Program-made: the position numbers and the translations under genes
NCBI GenBank assembly: GCA_016932415.1
Contig: JAFGCX010000034.1
Location: 62,001-126,000 of the forward strand
Reading direction: 5' to 3'
Origin: Candidatus Krumholzibacteriota bacterium
GTDB lineage: Bacteria > Krumholzibacteriota > Krumholzibacteriia > Krumholzibacteriales > Krumholzibacteriaceae
Length of the DNA: 64,000 bases
Shown: positions 38,946 to 40,389 of the stretch, in pieces
Layout of the letters: each line of letters opens with the position of its first letter
Position numbering within the stretch: position 1 is the stretch's first letter
Notes under the pieces: model-generated
Seen by the model: the letters and a program-made list of their open reading frames with translations, nothing else
What the model was told of the DNA's origin: nothing
Databases searched by the model: none

Positions 38946-38982
38946 AGCGGAAGAACTCATCGGGCCAATAATCGCAGATTAC

Positions 38983-39018
38983 AAAGCTCTTTCTCAATTT
39001 CAGGGAAAGAGCTTTTTT
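38983..39018 (+). terminator. Intrinsic terminator behind the lipoprotein gene
   Basis: An 11-bp perfect stem, AAAGCTCTTTC (38983-38993) with GAAAGAGCTTT (39005-39015), and an 11-base loop, runs into six T at 39013-39018. It separates the lipoprotein gene from the mglA-like transcript. Confidence 0.85.
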
Positions 39019-39087: not shown

Positions 39088-39103
39088 TGGCACATTAATT
39101 GCG
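39088..39103 (+). promoter_or_regulatory. Sigma-54-like promoter before the MglA-family gene
   Basis: TGGCAC at 39088-39093 and TTGCG at 39099-39103 give the exact GG-N10-GC spacing of -24/-12 promoters and match the TGGCAC-N5-TTGC consensus well. The predicted start is about 39114. It stands between a terminator and a long leader. Confidence 0.55.
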
Positions 39104-39113
39104 CATGCAGTTG

Positions 39114-39241
39114 ATGTCGGGGTGGATTATTCCTGATTCTAACGAAGTAATAACACCCTAGCTCAAGTGACGTTAGCCTGCTCCGGATTCTGCTTCCTTC
39201 GTCTGTGCATCGAGTGAGTGGGATGGAAGCTGCCCCGACAT
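39114..39241 (+). ncRNA. Candidate structured 5' leader RNA of the MglA-family gene
   Basis: The first nine bases from the predicted transcription start (39114-39122, ATGTCGGGG) pair perfectly with CCCCGACAT at 39233-39241, closing a 128-base domain that ends just before the AAGGAG of the gene. Inside: GGGTG/CACCC (39120-39124 with 39154-39158) extended by TTATT/AATAA (39127-39131 with 39149-39153); CTAACG/CGTTAG (39139-39144 with 39171-39176), which would make a loop-to-downstream pairing; and GCTTCC/GGAAGC (39192-39197 with 39225-39230). The closing stem and the first hairpin share G39120-G39122, so they exclude each other. No known riboswitch class was recognised. This is read by eye from one sequence; covariation is needed. 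Confidence 0.4.
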
Positions 39242-39264
39242 AAAATTATAAGGAGATCATCAAG

Positions 39265-40389
39265 ATGGCAGTCTATAACTATGCAGGTGGAGAGATCAAT
39301 GTCAAGATAGTCTATTATGGCCCGGGAGTAAGCGGGAAAACTACGAATCTTGAACTTATGTATTCGAAACTACCCAGAGAGAACAAGGGAAAGATGGTTT
39401 CGATGAAGACCCGTACTGACAGGACCCTTTTCTTTGATTTTCTTCCGATTGAAATAGGCGATTTCAAGGGGATGAAAGTGCGTTTCCTCCTGTACACGGT
39501 ACCAGGCCAGGTCTACTATAACGCCACCCGGAGACTTGTCCTCAAGGGAGTCGACGCGGTAGTCTTTGTCGCTGATTCTTCTCCAGGCAAGATGGATGAG
39601 AACATCGAGAGTCTTCATAATCTTGAGGAAAATCTCAACGAGCTTGGAATGTCACTCAGCACGATACCATGGATAATCCAGTACAACAAGCGCGACATCG
39701 AAGGATGCATAAGCAGAGATGTGCTTGATATAGAACTGAACACATGGAACGCCGACGCGATAGAATCAGTAGCCGTGACGGGTCAGGGAGTCTATGAGAC
39801 TTTCGAGGGTATAGCAAGAAAAGTCTTTGAATCACTGAAGGATATGCTGAGCGAATCGGAACCGGAAGAAGAACCGGTGGACGAGGAGCCTGAAGATGAA
39901 GATATCAATGTCGAGATAGTTGCTCAGGGTATATCAAGGAATCAAAGCTCAGGGACGGATGAGAGCGAGTCTTTAGGTTACGCAGAGGAGAGAGAAGAGG
40001 AGCACGAGTCTGTCTCTGAGTTTGTAGAAAATGTCCTCAAGGAAGGCGATCTGCCTGAGAACAGCATAGATCTGGGAGCAACCAGGGGAGGATACGAGGA
40101 GTACGGACACGTCGTGGAACTCGGTGGCACGGGGGCGGAGGGTGAAGCTGAGGAGGCTCCAAAGATGACAGTAGCGGTCGAAGAGAAGAAACCCGACTTT
40201 ATAACCGACCCACTCGATAATCTGTCGGAAAATGGACCCCGGGCGGATTCTGATAGCAGTGACGGTGAAATGCTTATATCGGACGAATCGTTCGAGAAGC
40301 TGGTGACGATTCCAGTCGAGCTGACAGAAGACCAGGTCAGAAACAACATCCCGGTCAAAGTCATTCTCGAGATCAAGGTGACACCCTGA
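39265..40389 (+). CDS. MglA-family small GTPase with long acidic C-terminal extension
   Basis: Residues 1-195 are an MglA-type Ras-like GTPase: P-loop GPGVSGKT at 19-26, switch II TVPGQ at 78-82 followed by VYYNATRRLVLKGVDAVVFVADSS, and the base-recognition motif NKRD at 141-144. MglA sets cell polarity and controls motility or type IV pili. Typical MglA proteins have about 195 residues; this one continues to 374 with a Glu/Asp-rich, presumably disordered stretch (about 200-330) and a compact end segment (ESFEKLVTIPVELTEDQVRNN then PVKVILEIKV). The end may be a docking motif. TAAGGAG stands nine bases before the ATG, behind a long leader with a sigma-54-like promoter. No MglB gene lies beside it. 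Confidence 0.85.
   Translation: MAVYNYAGGEINVKIVYYGPGVSGKTTNLELMYSKLPRENKGKMVSMKTRTDRTLFFDFLPIEIGDFKGMKVRFLLYTVPGQVYYNATRRLVLKGVDAVVFVADSSPGKMDENIESLHNLEENLNELGMSLSTIPWIIQYNKRDIEGCISRDVLDIELNTWNADAIESVAVTGQGVYETFEGIARKVFESLKDMLSESEPEEEPVDEEPEDEDINVEIVAQGISRNQSSGTDESESLGYAEEREEEHESVSEFVENVLKEGDLPENSIDLGATRGGYEEYGHVVELGGTGAEGEAEEAPKMTVAVEEKKPDFITDPLDNLSENGPRADSDSSDGEMLISDESFEKLVTIPVELTEDQVRNNIPVKVILEIKVTP

Follow-up and report, generated by a model that had tools for sequence, protein, structure and literature searches.

In a MAG of the Krumholzibacteriota, a largely uncultured bacterial group, the message of an MglA-type GTPase gene is likely to begin with a conserved cis-regulatory RNA of ~128 nt, a leader that would act on translation or stability and probably controls the amount of the GTPase made. 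The folded element, ~125-128 nt long and on the plus strand, lies within positions 39114-39264 of the window (the whole analyzed stretch of 64,000 nt), where the features of the leader could be seen in the sequence as earlier described. Its helices are conserved by compensatory changes, as in structured cis-regulatory leader RNAs, and its position in the 5' leader is consistent within one gene family. Comparison between species shows the predicted architecture, in which a three-way junction is closed by a helix (P1) with its extension (P2) and bears two hairpins, P3 and P4, with a conserved loop in each. Judged from sequence, the leader would be a new class within a known kind, the structured leader RNAs, since it is undescribed in the open-access literature searched and without a match in Rfam.

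The gene downstream of the leader (39265-40389, plus strand) encodes a small GTPase of 374 aa with a C-terminal extension. Solved MglA chains from the PDB match residues 1-192, i.e. the G domain, with an E-value of about 1e-64, and the product also has a Pfam Arf match, which bears out the MglA-type assignment made in the initial annotation. In Myxococcus, MglA determines the direction in which cells move, by type IV pili as well as by gliding. The acidic C-terminal extension, ~180 aa long and ending in EDQVRNNIPVKVILEIKVTP, is common to most orthologues of the order. The same genome also has a second mglA paralogue, whose length is ordinary (G000:C34:3939-4511, an open frame of 203 aa) and which is without the leader element. 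The leader follows a sigma-54 (-24/-12) promoter of the form TGGCAC-N5-TTGC (TGGCACATTAATTGC, 39088-39102, plus strand), with a predicted +1 at 39114, and the ribosome-binding site AAGGAG is found at 39250-39255 on the same strand.

P1 pairs 39114-39125 with 39230-39241 (plus strand). Within it, AUGUCGGGG (39114-39122) and CCCCGACAU (39233-39241) form 9 bp with no mismatch and close over 128 nt, while inclusion of two G-U pairs gives a helix of 12 bp. The 3' strand ends 8 bases 5' of AAGGAG; in homologues this distance to the ribosome site is 5-23 nt, mostly 6-11. In each of the 26 leaders, the P1 core begins between +2 and +5 of the predicted start, which indicates a mutual fit of promoter and RNA and agrees with the earlier proposal of a structured leader that begins at the predicted sigma-54 start. 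By hand, 22 leaders were aligned, including those of families f7 and f8 and leaving out the bulged L008, L012, L016 and L088. Core pairs 1-8 were paired in 175 of 176 cells, and over all counted pairs there were 39 G-U cells versus no A-C cells, which fixes the RNA strand as plus. On the MglA protein tree, some branches of which are weak, pairs 1, 2, 4, 8, 9 and 10 change 2, 3, 1, 6, 5 and 3 times, respectively.

P2, which extends P1, consists of UUCC (39130-39133) and GGAA (39225-39228) on the plus strand and is longer in many homologues. Its strands vary between leaders, e.g. CUACA/UGUAG in L007 versus GCUUCCC/GGGAAGC in L016. By employing a strand-swap test on 26 leaders, where the 5' strand of each species was hybridized both with the native 3' strand and with those of other species, we found that P1, its extension and P2 were unmatched by any permutation (0 out of 2000); these permutation figures ignore kinship, which is allowed for in part by the tree counts and by the inner-helix control described below. 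With core pairing, tree changes and swap test taken together, the closing helix covaries strongly, i.e. the compensatory changes sought in homologous leaders are present. P1 alone had 96.2% of its cells paired. For P1 and P4 together the figure was 93.2%, as compared to at most 49.1% when the strands were slid, and column counts gave five pairs with double changes versus 1.8 in shuffles. P2 is absent from one f1 clade, and P1 is retained in families f7 and f8 although the interior differs. The P1 probability of 0.00 obtained for L012, L016 and L088 is an indexing artefact of bulged helices. The folding energy of the leader was unremarkable against shuffled sequence (z 0.01), and the mean z over the 26 homologous leaders (-0.8) likewise gave no signal. 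Since folding energy fails to separate the leader from shuffled sequence, the structure was judged by comparison across species.

When 1953 window pairs were scanned without bias (background mean z -0.28, sd 1.21), P1 ranked first with a z of -5.6, followed by P3 (-4.6) and P2 (-4.4), while P4, scanned as CCUGCUC/GAGCGGG, was weaker (-2.9). P3 joins CUAACG (39139-39144) and CGUUAG (39171-39176), both on the plus strand, and is the best window pair outside P1. It corresponds to the six-base pairing of the initial annotation, which thereby stands as the second-best distinct helix of the scan. The per-leader strands point in the same direction: a helix of 6-8 bp recurs in the same place with unrelated sequence, as in L004 (GGCUGAAU/GUUUAGCC), L012 (AAUUCU/AGAAUU) and L020 (GUUAGUG/CAUUAAC), and is weak or bulged in several other leaders. 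P4 pairs CCUGCUC (39177-39183) with GAGUGGG (39216-39222) on the plus strand, with 89.6% of its cells paired and double changes at two of its pairs, and is altered in the sister family f2. The two loops are more conserved than the stems P2-P4 in alignment A3. Loop 1 (CACCCUAGCUCAAG, 39154-39167, plus strand), inside P3, is near-invariant. Its CACCC (CACCU in L020) begins 34-40 nt past the P1 start in 25 out of 26 leaders, other families of the class included, the exception being L012 with CAUCUG. Loop 2 (39184-39210, plus strand), inside P4, contains UCUGCUUCCUU(C)GUCUGUGCA, of which GCUUC is nearly invariant. Small insertions and deletions between species occur in this loop, which is evidence against coding.

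The mglA orthologue was found in 56 out of 58 relatives, the matches being in part to the second mglA paralogue. Families f1 and f2 have the conserved leader directly after the sigma-54 site. A covariance model (R1) built from 21 leaders finds the element in 22 of the 25 genomes of the order, at orthologous mglA genes, and gave no other matches at E 0.05 in 80 genomes of the phylum, and none outside the order. Each genome has one copy, except G017, where a second copy is located on a separate contig (contig 279) that ends just past an mglA start. Copies outside the training set of R1 were recovered in G015 (1.7e-16) and on contig 279 of G017 (1.1e-16). Families f7 and f8 have diverged relatives of the element (L023, L025, L028) that retain its P1 and a CACCC motif. 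Family f6 retains the sigma-54 site and has a short leader, while no TGGCAY-N5-TTGC site was seen before the gene in the f4 genomes looked at. A pattern match on a viral contig (L144) was dismissed as chance, being AT-rich and scoring only 10 bits with R1. In one f7 genome (G036), a different leader (L157) occupies the same place, with a possible GC-rich closing helix near +1 (GGCGGAG with CUCCGCGCC). A 5'-terminal helix may therefore be general in leaders of the mglA gene.

Perfect TGGCAY-N5-TTGC sites were found upstream of 28 of the 29 orthologues examined. The genome as a whole has 29 such sites, compared to 8 for the reversed control pattern, together with about 20 sigma-54 activator genes. 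Further upstream lies a candidate site for an activator (enhancer-binding protein), TCGCAGATTACA (38972-38983, plus strand; consensus TYGCAnnTTnCA). Similar motifs start 113-117 or 126-128 bases 5' of the sigma-54 TGG in most orthologous upstream regions. These two spacings (about -116 and -127 from TGG) differ by approximately one helical turn, as expected for an activator site, and the motif is likely to be such a binding site, common to much of the class. With its -24/-12 element, predicted start and candidate activator site, the mglA unit has the appearance of a sigma-54 dependent transcription unit. Just upstream (38984-39018), mglA is separated from a preceding lipoprotein-like gene by a hairpin that resembles a terminator, has a T run and recurs in similar form in many family members. 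Elsewhere in the genome, perfect sigma-54 sites (L131, L132, L133, L122 and L128) precede pilM, the gene of a pilA-like prepilin, that of a pilB-type ATPase and those of two GGDEF proteins, so that the regulon takes in pilus and c-di-GMP functions. This makes a link to pilus-based motility reasonable, albeit inferred.

The view that no known RNA family is involved was upheld, as a search of Rfam at gathering threshold gave no match in the window or in 15 homologous loci. Relaxing the threshold to E 10 added a chance snoRNA match only, with none to c-di-GMP-I, c-di-GMP-II or other families. The open-access literature searched had nothing relevant on an mglA riboswitch or on noncoding RNA of Krumholzibacter, and control of an mglA gene at the RNA level was not found described there. 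GEMM-type cyclic-dinucleotide riboswitches include c-di-GMP-I, and cGAMP-sensing relatives are known from Geobacter. This type resembles the mglA leader in having a P1-closed three-way junction with two hairpins before motility or pilus-type genes. The mglA leader differs in its conserved loops, in the lack of an Rfam match even at E 10, and in its linkage to mglA and to a sigma-54 start. The stabilizing 5' stem-loop of the ompA leader shares with it a stem at the extreme 5' end and an unpaired ribosome site downstream, whereas the mglA leader has a long-range helix closing a three-way junction with hyperconserved loops. Orphan bacterial leader motifs from comparative genomics, of the sort treated in PMC7266159, similarly have conserved secondary structure and are gene-linked. 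Compared to these, the mglA leader is limited to a single order, apart from its diverged relatives elsewhere in the class, and is not in Rfam 15.

A further proposal in the initial annotation was that of mutually exclusive helices, and of this the physical premise stands. GGGUG (39120-39124, plus strand) can pair with CACCC (39154-39158), and this inner helix shares G residues with P1, both helices being able to form in most leaders. For many leaders, the inner hairpin is highly probable in prefixes of 53-61 nt but has next to no probability in the full leader, and the sister family has longer versions, GGGUGUA/UACACCC in L018 and GGGUGUUG/CAACACCC in L022. That P1 and this hairpin are alternative functional states chosen by a signal is nevertheless improbable. 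Both strands are near-invariant across leaders, column counts revealed no double change, and native pairing was no better than swapped among the 26 leaders, 1718 out of 2000 permutations being as good; as the inner helix shares the phylogeny of P1, it serves as an internal negative control for the swap test. In addition, it loses a pair where U10 of P1 becomes C (L011, L019, L025) and is also broken in the divergent L012, and the stability of the prefixes equals that of shuffled sequence (mean z 0). A local hairpin competing with P2 was likewise considered and showed no covariation. A switch as folding path is not required by the comparative evidence. GGGUG/CACCC is a possible early folding intermediate, which may precede P1 during transcription and give way once the 3' half of P1 emerges.

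As for the manner of action, no terminator was found inside the leader, and no conserved anti-Shine-Dalgarno (OFF-state) pairing was found in the leaders, where P1 leaves the ribosome site uncovered. Translation initiation or stability is consequently a likelier target than attenuation. Sequestration of the Shine-Dalgarno sequence by the conserved pyrimidine loop or by the 5' strand of P4 was rejected, as the pairing is possible but the native one no better than swapped. It is highly improbable that there is no RNA element at all and that the conservation is due to the promoter or to a leader peptide. An AUG at +1 in the window does open a 15-codon frame that stops at a conserved UAG, but the frame is lost in homologues through different starts and indels (alignment A3), and G-U cells without A-C cells, together with pair-preserving changes, are signatures of RNA, so that the covariation contradicts a coding or promoter reading. 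A passive role, where the P1 stem would shield the message from 5'-end-dependent RNases with nothing being sensed, and a sigma-54 burst would yield long-lived mRNA, fits both the start of P1 in 26 out of 26 leaders, 2-5 nt from the predicted 5' end, and its conservation in f7 and f8 despite the different interior. We regard this as unlikely, as a protector has no need of invariant loops, yet CACCCUAGC and CUGCUUC..GUCUGUGCA are at least as conserved as P1. Somewhat less doubtful, and a special case of the cis-regulatory leader, is a metabolite riboswitch whose junction would have a small-molecule ligand, possibly a nucleotide second messenger. The three-way junction and its two conserved loops near the ribosome site are consistent with this tentative reading, as are the pilus and GGDEF genes behind the other sigma-54 sites. 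Against it, no known riboswitch model matches in the window or the 15 homologous loci, a protein ligand is equally possible, and a single gene family is attached, so that gene context says little about the ligand.

In the cis-regulatory leader that we favor, RpoN-RNA polymerase would initiate at a site that places the 5' end of the transcript within P1, and either a small molecule or a protein would bind at the junction and its two loops. Formation or stabilization of P1, close 5' of the ribosome site, could then alter ribosome loading or mRNA lifetime and in this way set the dose of the MglA GTPase. Weighing against this reading are the ordinary single-sequence folding energies, the single downstream gene family, a ribosome site that P1 leaves uncovered with no conserved OFF-state pairing found, and the alteration of P4 in f2 and loss of P2 in one f1 clade. 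A more specific version, which we hold to be rather unlikely, is a new riboswitch class found only in Krumholzibacteriota, in which metabolite sensing would set the dose of a polarity GTPase within a sigma-54/pilus regulon, with the early hairpin displaced co-transcriptionally; the metabolite could in that case be a signaling nucleotide.

Lastly, a conserved orphan leader before mglA in a little-studied phylum constitutes a new and concrete target when screening for ligands or protein partners. If a signal is sensed by the leader, the control of polarity would be linked to that signal.
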